DNA of 64,000 nucleotides from Elmis aenea. Lineage: Eukaryota > Arthropoda > Insecta > Coleoptera > Elmidae. Within the stretch, counting starts at the first letter, position 1. Every line of letters starts with the position of its first letter. The stretch is taken from contig OX393580.1 in the NCBI GenBank assembly GCA_947652605.1, positions 16,636,159 to 16,700,158 of the forward strand, given 5' to 3'. The notes beneath the pieces were generated by a model. The model saw nothing but the letters and a program-made list of their open reading frames with translations, was not told the DNA's origin and searched no databases. Shown here in pieces: positions 55,320 to 61,600 of this stretch. The position numbers and the translations under genes are program-made.

Positions 55320-55339
55320 TAGGGGTGGGCGATATCCAA

Positions 55340-55690
55340 ATTTCGATATCGAATATCGATATCGAAATTATATCGATATATATCGATATATCGATATATC
55401 GATATATCGATATATATCGATATATCGACATATCGATATATCGATATATCGACATATCGATATATCGGAATATCGATATATCGATATATCGATATATCGA
55501 TATATCGATATATCGGAATATCGATATATCGATATATCGGAATATCGATATATCGATATATCGATATATCGACATATCGATATATCGGAATATCGATATA
55601 TCGATATATCGGAATATCGATATATCGATATATCGGAATATCGACATATCGATATATTTATATATCGACATATCGAAATTTCGATATAAA
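55340..55690. repeat. Left subterminal TATCGATA array
   Basis: Tandem octamers, mostly TATCGATA with variants TATCGGAA and TATCGACA, about forty units. The octamer is its own reverse complement. It equals the DRE core bound by DREF in Drosophila. Frames read through it (YRYIDIS repeats) are artefacts. Confidence 0.93.
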
Positions 55691-55743
55691 AGCGGCGCGA
55701 AGCTAAAAAAGTCGGTAAAAAAGTGAAAAAAGAGACTGGTAAC

Positions 55744-55874
55744 TAGGGGTGGGCGATATCGAATATAATTTCGATATCGATATATATATATATTATCGAT
55801 ATACTGTTATATCGCAATAAAAGAGGCGGGAAGCTAAAAAAGTAAGTAAAAAACTAAAAAAAGAGACTGGTGAC
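55744..55874. repeat. Second, inner copy of the left hAT terminus
   Basis: TAGGGGTGGGCGATATCGA followed by a short TATCGATA region and AAGAGGCGGGAAGCTAAAAA, matching the outer copy whose array ends in AAGCGGCGCGAAGCTAAAAA. Both copies end near GAGACTGGT. The inner copy has a far shorter octamer array. Confidence 0.85.
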
Positions 55875-57542: not shown

Positions 57543-60147
57543 TTACAATAATTTTGGAACAAATTTTTTATTCATAGACAAAAATATTAATTGTTCGGCA
57601 TGTTCTCCTGTTAAGGAAGTTCTTAAGTCGGTAATGACATTGCCACCGCAACTAAAAACACGTTCAGATGCAACGCTAGTTGCTTGAATGCATAAATACT
57701 TTTTAGAATAAACACTCAAGTTTGGATAACAATGTGAATTTGCGTGCCACCAATTTAAAGGATTGTCACTTACATCTATAACCGGGAATTGCATATAATT
57801 TTCAATTTCGTTTTTAATTTTGTCAAATGGTGAAACTACCTGATCTATCTCTACAGATTTTTTACCTAAAATAGCTGCTAGTCCAGTTACCTTTTTTGAT
57901 TTGCTTTTACTGTCAGCGTCCGACACGCTTAAGTTTAGATTTTTAAGCATATCAATAATTTCATTAATAACGTCACTAATAAATTCACTTGTAACTATAC
58001 ATTCCGAATTGAAAATTTGTTTTTTAAACCGAGGGTCAATAAACGTTGCCTTTTTAAGAAATAAAAGTACTTTATCGTTAACATACCTTTTTGTTAGGGT
58101 GTTAATTATACACATATGTAAATGATTTGGTATTATTTCAACTTCCGAACAATAAGTGGACTCATCAGCAGGATTATCAGTAACATTTTCTTTTAAATTA
58201 TTACATATTGGAATAATGGATGAAGCAGTTACGTAAGTCTCACCCGACATGTGTTTGGAAATGTTTTCATATATTTTTAATACATTTATTGTTGCGTTTA
58301 ATATATTTATTTCAGTTGCACTTAAAATAAATTCTCTATACCTTCCTCTTGAAAATTCATCTAATAAAGTGTTTATGACGATACTTTGTTGTGTTAGAAT
58401 TTCTATTAAATACAGGAAAGACCACCATCGAGTTGGTGTATAGGAGGGAATTTTTTTAACAGGTTTGTTAAATCTTTCTTGAGCTAATTTTAACTCTCTC
58501 GTTAGTTTGTAACTATGAGCTATTGCGTTTTGAATTTTTTTACATTTATTTAATGGAGATGATAGTTCATTCATTTTTAACAATGTTGATGCCCCTGTAT
58601 TTAAAGAATGTCCGAAACAACTTAGATGAGGTCGGTTTAAAATATTTATTGCAGCTAAAATATTAGCGCCATTGTCTGTTGTACAGCAACTAATGTTATC
58701 AACACTTACATTCCAATATTGTAGTGTATCTAAAATGACTTTATGCAAATTATTGGCAGTTTGATCAACATCTACTTTTTGACATGTTAACGTTATACTT
58801 TGCAATTCAAAATGATCGTCAATGAAATGAATGGTTACCGCTAAATAGGGCTCCATAGCTGCAGACGTCCACGAATCGGTTGTTATTGAAAAAAAATTGA
58901 TTTTCTTTAACAGTTTTTTTATTACGTTTACCGTATCTTCATACAGTCGTGGTATTCTATCGGTTGATAAAGTTTTCCTACTAGGTATTTTAAAGGTAGG
59001 CGCGAGCATTTTCACAAATAATTGAAATCCTTCTTTTTCTACTAAATTATAAGGCATCATATCGACAGCAATAAAATATGCAAGTGCTTTTGATAATTTT
59101 TCTTGCGTTGCGCTAGTGATTGGTTTGTACATGTCAAGTGTGGGTTGATAAAGGTTTTTTTTTTTACCTTGATTATGAATATCAATAAATTCTATAGATG
59201 ATGCTGGTGATAGTATTTCAGGAGTGGTTGACGACATACCTGACGTGGACGGTTGACTTCTTAAACAAAAATACAAAGACACTATTAATATACATTTGAC
59301 AAAATATAGAAATGTAATACATGAATATTTTAAAATTTTCCTGTTTCTTGATTTACGAGGTTAAAATTAAACGATGGTTTACTGGTTTATAACGAGTTTT
59401 TTATTTTTTACTAAACATCCTACAAGTTTCGTTGGTTAAAGTTTTACCAACATTATCAGGGCTAAAAATTGTTATTTTTTATACTTTAATTTATACAGAA
59501 ATTTATACATAGATATATAAATATATATATAAATTTCTGTACCAATTAAAGTATAAAAAAATACCAATTTTTAGCCCTGAGAATGTTGGTAAAACCTTAA
59601 CCAACGAAACATGTAGGATGTTTAGTAAAAAATAATAAACCTGTTATAAACCAGTAAAGCATCGTGTAATACATAAATGTTTCTAAAAATATATGTTTAA
59701 TAAATAAATGATCTAAAAAGATATAATGAATCGGTATTATCAAGTACTACGAATATGTAACTATTAAAAGTTTTAAATTAATGACCGCGCACATAATGCA
59801 TGTAAATAATTTTGCTTGATAGTGAACTTGAACTTACAGTTTTGAACAGCTTTCTCTAAATTTTTATTTTAAAACAACGATCCTGTAGTAATAAATAAAT
59901 GCTGTACTTACTCAACAGAGCTAACTAATGTTATATCTTGTTCTTCGCTTTCATTGTCATCAGGGGCAAGCGTTGGAGTTTCTTGTAATTTGTGTGTAAG
60001 CTGAGGGTGATAAGTTCTTAAATGGCTCCTTAAATTGCTGGTGTTGCCTGAATAACCAATTTGTTTACTACATTTCAAGCACTGAAGTTTTTTTTCACTA
60101 ACTTTTTTGAAATACTTCCAGTACTGACTTCTCGAGGTGTTTGACAT
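57543..60147 (-). CDS. hAT transposase with BED zinc finger
   Basis: Exon 1 60147-59912 and exon 2 59259-57543 splice GA|GTAAGT to TTTAAG|A and give 650 residues, normal for hAT-Ac/ZBED1-like enzymes. Residues 9-48 form a BED finger: Tyr9-Trp10, Cys23, Cys26, His42, His47. The RNase H-like core shows FSITTDSWTS (Asp207), CCTTDNGAN (Asp274) and the CxxH motif SCFGH (Cys293, His296). A C-terminal hATC dimerisation region follows: NPLNWWHANS, KYLCIQATSVASERVFS, LIFLSMNKK (about 566-646). The third catalytic acid is not assigned by eye. The enzyme excises and inserts the element in the nucleus. The frame is open with no break, unlike every other transposase in the window. The long intron (59260-59911) holds a palindromic insertion. 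Confidence 0.93.
59372..59664. repeat. Palindromic MITE in the transposase intron
   Basis: CGATGGTTTACTGGTTTATA at the left mirrors the complement ending GTAAAGCATCG. Arms of about 130 bases also pair ATCCTACAAGTTTCGTTGGT and AGGGCTAAAAATTG. It does not touch the exons. Confidence 0.75.
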
Positions 60148-61283
60148 TTTGATGCTCGTTTAATTCCTATAAAAAATAAAAAACGTGGACGTGGTTGTAG
60201 TAACATATGATTGGTTAATTAAAAAAATATTTTTGTATATCCAATACGTTCATCAAAAAGTAAAACTTAAAAAAATAAATGTCGCGAAGACAAAAAAAAA
60301 TCAGATTGAATGTATAAAATTAATGATAATCGTTCAATATAATAAAATGTTTCACTTAAATATTCTGACACATAAACAGAAATTGCTATTTAATAAATCT
60401 ATTTAACTTACCTTATAATGTATTTATAACTTTCCAACACCACAACACTACTTTATAACAATGATTTTAAGTTCGGCAGGGATGTTCTTTATATACTTTT
60501 TAAACTTTTCTCTGTAAACCCCCAAACTTCGAATTATATTATTTGTGAATTACCTACTCCGTATAAGGTATAAGTAATTTAACGGGGATTTACAAAACTA
60601 TGCGTATTGGTGGAATTATTTATTGTCTTATGAAAGCATAAGGGTAAAATTTTAGGGGATGCACCGAAGATGTAAAATTTTTGGGAATCACCGAACATCG
60701 TCAATAACACTATACACGTGTACCTAACAAAAACGCAGAAAATAATGAATATAAAAATTTTAAGAACAATCAATAATAAATCTATCAATAATGTTAAAAG
60801 TTTACTATGTACAGTTTTAAATACGATGCTGCAGGAATAAAAATCATTTAAAAAATAGTTTTGGAGTCTCATTTAGAGACAAATTTAGCGTGTAAGAGCG
60901 AACGAATGATTTTTGTTTACGTCTAAATAAATAAATTATATATTTAAATTAAAATATAAAATAAAATAATGTCACATTTGACAGCCCAAAACCAATTAAT
61001 ATGTTCATCAATCTTAACATTTGTTGTTTATGTTCATTATTAATAATAATGTCTTATTCCACCGAAAAATTATAAAGTCAATACCAATACGACCATGTAA
61101 TTCCAATTTTAGTGCACACGAGTATATTGAGTTACTGCGAAATAAATGTGCCTACATATCTCATTTTACCCTCTTAAATATATTTTCATTAATTCTCGTA
61201 TAACTGAATACGTTTAAATGATTTAATTACTATTTTACTGGGTTAAGATATCGAATATTCACAAACAACAATACAAAACAATA

Positions 61284-61590
61284 CATCGATATATCGAAAA
61301 ATATTGATATATCGATATATCGATATTTCGATATTTTTCGATATATCGATATATCGATATTTCGATATAATTTTGATATCGATATATCGATATATCGATA
61401 TATCGATATATCGATATATCGATATATCGATATTTCGATATTTCGATATATCGATATATCGAAATATCGATATCCGATATATCGATATATCGATATATCG
61501 ATATATCGATATATCGATATCCGATATTTCGATATATCGATATATCGATATCAAAATTATATCGATATTTATCGATATATCGATATATCG
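61284..61590. repeat. Right subterminal TATCGATA array
   Basis: Tandem TATCGATA octamers with variants TATTTCGA and ATATCCGA. Composition mirrors the left array, although individual variant order differs. Confidence 0.93.
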
Positions 61591-61600
61591 CCCAGCCCTA

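Follow-up and report, generated by a model that had tools for sequence, protein, structure and literature searches.

The window analysed here is a 64,000-nucleotide stretch of the genome of the beetle Elmis aenea (C5:16636159-16700158), taken from an assembly of 516 Mb and 302 contigs that we also searched for related elements. Positions 55320-61600 of the window are a 6281-bp hAT insertion with long tandem arrays of the 8-bp palindrome TATCGATA near both ends, and the insertion encodes a transposase with a BED zinc finger. From sequence comparison and by analogy with the hAT transposase Hermes, we think it likely that these arrays serve an Ac-type hAT element as subterminal sites for transposase binding, and that the BED finger would be what reads them. 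In Hermes, the BED domain is known to recognise subterminal repeats (PMC10368747).

The arrays are far denser than composition would give. TATCGATA occurs 54 times in the window, as compared to 0.95 ± 1.07 (at most 5) in 100 dinucleotide shuffles. Nearly all of these (49/54) are in two tracts: 26 in the left array (55346-55688) and 23 in the right array (61281-61590). With two more in a short inner arm (55744-55830), the insertion has 51, its interior (55900-61200) has none, and the rest of the window has three. When the two arms were shuffled against themselves they gave 12.7 ± 3.0 copies, and none of 1000 shuffles reached 49. The arrays are tandem with a period of 8. Among the window's units that are flanked by two perfect octamers, 14 are TATCGATA, five are TATCGGAA, three are TATCGACA, and one is TATCGAAA; the TATCGGAA and TATCGACA variants are found in the left array. 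The first-pass annotation described two pure arrays of about 300-350 bp, and while the arrays are real, they are not pure. Repeat analysis also identified a non-palindromic core of 26 bp, TATCGATATC(G/A)AAATTATATCGATAT, which appears in the same orientation (forward strand) at 55354-55379 and at 61543-61568. Chance or a plain microsatellite can be ruled out, given counts beyond all shuffles, two unlike ends, and target duplications.

The same 8-bp target-site duplication, GTTTACGG, lies on the left (55312-55319) and on the right (61601-61608) of the insertion, as in Ac-type hAT elements. Comparison of the terminal inverted repeats gives TAGGGGTGGGCGATAT as the outer left-type terminus (55320-55335, forward strand) and TAGGGCTGGGCGATAT as the right-type terminus (61585-61600, reverse strand). 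Ac-type hAT elements prefer targets of the form nTnnnnAn. The window's own site has T at position 2 and G, not A, at position 7.

Domain and fold comparisons bear out the earlier claim that the insertion encodes a BED-finger hAT transposase. The gene is on the reverse strand. Exon 1 (59912-60147) contains the BED finger by domain match (residues 7-48, around 60004-60129), and exon 2 (57543-59259) is a single open frame that covers the catalytic and dimerisation parts of the hAT transposase. A predicted GT-AG splice would join them into a protein of 650 residues. In the spliced model, the CCHH zinc finger matches PF02892 (E=3e-13) and the dimerisation region matches Dimer_Tnp_hAT (PF05699, E 6e-22 to 7e-22). 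The protein has the RNase-H-like fold as well: the top Foldseek match of the AlphaFold model of exon 2 (mean pLDDT 86) is the Hermes transposase (TM 0.67, E 9e-21). The D of TTDSWTS, the D of TTDNGAN, and the E of SERVFS align with the positions that we take to be the catalytic residues of Hermes. This is not a host gene without terminal repeats, as DREF is; it sits between terminal inverted repeats and a target duplication.

As the first-pass annotation anticipated, many other copies in the genome have the same arrays. We queried the genome with the left end, array included; 40 of the 1244 candidates were scored, which gave at least 157 matches, and we fetched 38 places. At 36 of these we found an element with a perfect (8/8) target duplication; the other two were L046, with 6/8, and L032, which has no recognisable left end. 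Another element, known from the search only (L003), also has an 8/8 duplication. After merging identical elements and splitting one nest (L027), there were 37 distinct elements of 302-651 bp, plus 1067 bp for the element that holds the nest. Typically, such a miniature element has an octamer array inside each terminus and a spacer between the two arrays, although no spacer could be recognised in L005. Two of them, L021 and L022, are identical across 532 bp and lie at different sites with different target duplications, which implies recent movement.

We also searched with the 16-bp terminus alone, with one G/C position left free, so that the query contained no array. This gave 752 + 728 = 1480 matches, and the reversed control gave none. 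We paired up the 100 ends listed and obtained 28 close inverted pairs (56 ends), all on contig C1, which span 82-2998 bp (median 342). Five of these pairs had already been fetched (L017, L035, L040, L044, and L046). Another 11, chosen towards the short end, span 82-350 bp, contain 2-12 copies of TATCGATA each, and have target duplications of 8/8 (nine pairs) or 7/8 (two pairs), so that 16 of the 28 were read. Together, the 37 and the 11 make a set of 48 distinct siblings with target duplications of at least 7/8, and 46 of the 48 are 8/8. The duplications follow the nTnnnnAn preference, with T at position 2 in 44/48 and A at position 7 in 36/48. In a search of DNA from other sources, viral contigs yielded no relative, and the genome contigs gave one exact match to a 19-base terminus, in a bacterial bin (L099).

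Like Hermes, the family has two unlike ends. Every one of the 48 siblings has one left-type end (GGGCGATATC) and one right-type end (GGGCGATATAT), and all 28 close pairs among the first 100 ends listed are mixed in the same way. Across the genome, 724 of the 1480 termini are of the GGGCGATATAT right type (again, 0 in the reversed control). Left and right ends are strictly paired in all of the elements examined. At left-type ends, approximately the first 60 bases are at least 85% conserved; right-type ends are 95% conserved over 23 bases and are looser further in. Allowing up to 2 mismatches, 37 of the 48 siblings have exactly two copies of the 26-bp core, in direct orientation. Six siblings have one copy, two have none, and three have other numbers.

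The first-pass annotation called the insertion a complete hAT element. It does have terminal inverted repeats and a target duplication, but it is composite. A second left-type terminus begins at 55744 on the forward strand, and its short arm (55744-55830) has two copies of TATCGATA in 87 bp. We therefore rejected a single simple element of 6.3 kb with its own 300-bp arrays at both ends. To the left of this inner terminus, 55320-55743 matches (by eye) the left half of a miniature element, many copies of which are present in the genome. That half includes the left array and a piece of the miniature spacer (55689-55743, forward strand). The piece ends in CTGGTAAC, a putative inner target duplication that directly precedes the inner terminus; a second copy of CTGGTAAC was not found within the insertion. 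Also, 55794-55874 is a second copy of 55663-55743 (81% identical). We infer that the gene-bearing element landed in a miniature copy and that the nest has lost its right-hand junction, perhaps through exchange between the right arrays. Another nest, L027 (312-1378), is of the same kind: one miniature copy lies within another, with the target duplication CTTCTCGC inside GTTGTCAA and both intact.

The composite structure raises the question of whether the window's insertion is a one-off rearrangement, with arrays that came from a miniature copy and a gene-bearing element that never used octamer arrays. The short arm at the second terminus and the match of the left array to the miniature family are what this account would predict. 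We nevertheless consider it very unlikely, because a separate gene-bearing copy (L077, on contig C4), which is 97.8% identical to the window's over 3.78 kb, has a left arm of its own. This 194-bp arm contains seven TATCGATA and 23 half-sites, and neither count was reached in any of 1000 shuffles. Furthermore, the spacer of the miniature elements is homologous to the left flank of the gene-bearing element (the 81% repeat described above), and one short element, L093, continues past the miniature spacer into gene-bearing-element sequence (by eye). The match to L077 stops at a hairpin in the transposase intron (59366-59670), which has 115-bp arms that are 92% complementary. The hairpin is probably an unrelated insertion.

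If each transposase reads its own word, then other hAT families in this genome should have other subterminal words, and this is what we found: three families have three different words. The second family (L079, L080, L081, L084, and others) has a BED finger, is 2446 bp long, has the terminus TAGAGATGTACCG, and encodes a transposase that is 29% identical to the window's. It looks young: its copies are approximately 99% identical, and at least 10 of the copies listed have a stop-free frame of 628-629 residues. Its ends (2 x 150 bp) contain the repeats CCGGGTA / GGTACCCGG, with 13 CCGGGTA, a number that none of 1000 shuffles reached. The third family is represented by one copy (L086:2027-5022) with the terminus TAGAGTCCTGC and 26 ACCCGC in 2 x 200 bp (again, reached in 0/1000 shuffles). 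This copy has hAT domains and a Hermes-type DNA-binding domain, and no BED finger was seen in the frames that we searched, which leaves two families out of three with an observed BED finger. There is no TATCGATA in the subterminal arms of the second or third family. Second-family termini also enclose a 5070-bp segment (L083, 3777-8846) that has an extra open frame of 584 residues besides the transposase frames. Two other places, L085 and L087, have no clear element ends; in L087 (2758-5190), the transposase query hit an open frame of 811 residues that has no Pfam match at 0.001.

These other words also bear on whether the arrays are bound by a host BED protein similar to DREF, which the element would use for the timing of its expression or for its placement in chromatin. 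Drosophila DREF does bind TATCGATA, and BEAF binds CGATA (PMC6179265, PMC2605929). The right array is upstream of the transposase gene, and the miniature copies, with two CGATA clusters around a spacer, resemble BEAF dual-cores. A host factor would not readily account for unrelated words in two further hAT families of the same genome, or for arrays at both ends, one of which lies behind the gene. We view this explanation as quite unlikely.

To describe the word without bias, we counted, across the 48 siblings, those units that have a perfect octamer on either side (n=394). The most common are TATCGATA (95), TTCCGATA (89), TATCGACA (74), TATCGGAA (69), TTTCGATA (25), and TATCGGAT (20), and the others are rare. 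Across positions 1-8, the units show 4, 126, 99, 5, 2, 95, 171, and 20 changes. The central CG is nearly invariant (C differs in 5 and G in 2 of the 394), while positions 2, 3, 6, and 7 differ in 95-171. By hand count, TATCG or its complement CGATA is intact in 382 of the 390 units listed. We dropped an earlier statement that every unit keeps TATCG, as the pattern itself had fixed TATCG; counted without that bias, units retain the central CG together with a half-site that may be in either orientation. Starts of TATCG are spaced by 8 bp in 805 gaps, by 16 bp in 214, and by 10 bp in 90. A spacer could be recognised in 36 siblings. In 20 of these the left arm, and in 28 the right arm, has a length in one class modulo 8, as would be expected if units were gained and lost whole.

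The same regularity could arise from neutral expansion of the long arrays. The transposase would then need no more than the terminal 16 bp and a few nearby sites, and a palindromic 8-bp word would have slipped into a satellite-like tract that hitchhikes with the element. The shared length class (20/36 and 28/36) is as expected from such slippage, and so is the handful of unit variant types, which unit copying would yield. Furthermore, elements of just 82-196 bp have 8/8 or 7/8 target duplications, and the inner left end of the window's copy has a short arm. Neutral expansion is harder to reconcile with three observations: both ends have sites, as does L077, a separate gene-bearing copy; almost every unit retains the central CG plus one half-site, and variation is found at the other positions; and two further hAT families have repeats of different words. 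We regard it as a serious possibility, but we lean against it.

If the arrays are read by the transposase, then the BED finger would recognise TATCG half-sites (CGATA on the other strand), which are often paired as the palindrome TATCGATA. The transposase would be loaded on two unlike ends, left-type and right-type, which would enable the ends to pair. A few tens of base pairs of terminus may suffice, and the longer arrays would be an expansion that may raise affinity. Growth and shrinkage of the arrays would mostly proceed in steps of full 8-bp units, with slippage or unequal exchange as the probable mechanism. We predict that this same transposase moves the miniature copies.

Recognition of the arrays through the BED finger, as proposed in the first-pass annotation, is the best-supported of these readings: it has the precedent of Hermes, a separate word for each family, and the resemblance of the finger to human ZBED1. 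By sequence, the sole good match of the finger among solved structures is ZBED1 (2ct5, E 3e-7), with YSGNTSNL in common, and 2ct5 is also the first match of the finger's structural model (E 7e-4).

Several observations weigh against this reading. The Hermes BED-DNA complex (8eb5) matches the model of the finger weakly (E 1.0). The core of the recognition loop, T(S/T)N, is found in 106 of the 107 related BED fingers that we parsed (46 of the 153 proteins surveyed had no BED match by the pattern used). Because the core is nearly universal, it cannot predict the octamer word, and we dropped the attempt to predict the word from loop residues. We found one intact transposase copy of the octamer family among 76 scored of 580 candidates, so a different gene could be responsible for moving the miniature copies. 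Most of the siblings (37/48) came from the query that held the array. The copies and their units share common descent, which lowers the weight of the counts for end pairing, the core, half-sites, and array retention; in particular, the few variant types imply unit copying, so the 394 units are not independent. Finally, the clean target duplications of the 82-196 bp elements make long arrays look dispensable, unless these copies shrank after they inserted. The first-pass annotation would have counted siblings with unrelated subterminal sequence against itself. The short siblings go a little way in that direction: they drop most of the array and keep some TATCG/CGATA at the ends.

The proteins nearest to the transposase are from beetles and aphids. 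In a tree of 32 transposase-like proteins, the window's protein groups with ZBED1-like proteins from beetles, aphids, and fish in a 16-row clade (98/96), and the second hAT family (L079) lies on the other side of the tree. The tree used exon 2 only for the window's protein and left out P0028, P0034, P0035, rows of under 360 residues, human ZBED1, and DREF. Neither Drosophila DREF nor human ZBED1 was among the protein-search matches listed (120 of 416 in one search). One match, P0007 from Holotrichia, is labelled "dna replication-related element factor"; we do not treat this as evidence, since it is the source's name on a hAT-like protein.

The element resembles Hermes in its hAT fold, its BED finger, its unlike ends, and half-sites near the tip that are able to pair as palindromes. 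Hermes has scattered AAG(T/C) sites; here there are tandem 8-bp palindromes of up to 300 bp, the word is TATCG, and the carriers include many miniature elements. As for ZBED1 (also known as hDREF), its BED finger is the nearest by both sequence and fold, and T(A/G)TCG halves are common to both. ZBED1 is a host gene, and its 10-bp site, TGTCG(C/T)GA(C/T)A, has halves that abut instead of overlapping. A T(A/G)TCG half accompanies a ZBED1-like finger in two cases, and a different word accompanies a distant finger; this is suggestive, no more. The site of Drosophila DREF is TATCGATA, and DREF and ZBED1 are 22% identical (PMC6179265). ZBED1 is described as having no close relationship to DREF (PMC3606216).

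The word is identical to the sites of DREF (TATCGATA) and BEAF-32B (CGATA), which we compared by their site words only; the carrier here is mobile. BEAF is a BED plus BESS protein (PMC5021357), and in its dual-cores an AT-rich spacer (about 200 bp, over 70% AT) separates two clusters of CGATA (PMC2605929). Dual-cores have at least three CGATA per cluster, and the miniature elements exceed this, with 11-19 octamers in left arms and 5-21 in right arms (measured in 18 of the first 20 siblings; L002 and L005 were dropped). Their spacers are 75-91 bp (with exceptions of 285 and 413 bp) and 60-69% AT in the 36/48 siblings with a recognisable spacer. Since these spacers are shorter and less AT-rich, the likeness to dual-cores is partial. 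A sink or boundary effect, as suggested in the first-pass annotation, would be hypothetical.

There is also a parallel in CGG-binding hAT proteins, where a BED-region protein is paired with the subterminal word of its own element: all four of the hAT-encoded proteins with a measured motif match the subterminal regions of their own elements (PMC8097297). The motifs there are mostly CGG or AT-rich, and TATCGATA is not mentioned in the available part of that paper.

The idea from the first-pass annotation that the specificity of DREF or BEAF descends from such elements is unsupported. A related and more speculative scenario is that the ZBED1-like hAT lineage has an old BED specificity for T(A/G)TCG halves. 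The DRE word (TATCGATA in flies, TGTCGYGAYA in humans) would then be a subterminal address that domesticated transposases kept, and miniature elements made of arrays would scatter DREF/BEAF-type platforms. We consider this unlikely, though worth stating.

The element is ordinary in kind, as a hAT with BED-type subterminal repeats, and unusual in its word and in its scale. As far as the literature we searched goes, the DRE word in dense tandem, the many small carriers, and the strict pairing of left and right ends are new, and that search found no paper for the longer array words. If the finger does read TATCGATA, then this recently mobile family offers a direct test of the origin of the DRE word and its readers. 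Its many small mobile copies spread dense arrays of a known regulatory site. The natural deletion series, with paired left and right ends, should also be useful for studying how hAT ends are recognised.

The insertion lies within C2H2 zinc-finger coding repeats with an 84-bp unit, which flank it at 54629-55303 and 61615-62147. When these repeats are joined across the empty site, there is a frame slip immediately to the right of the target site. Elsewhere in the window, 22204-23088 contains a fragment of a transposase with DDE_Tnp_1_7 (piggyBac-like, which is our own label), and 17705-18420 is a tandem duplication of 355 bp with 98% matches.

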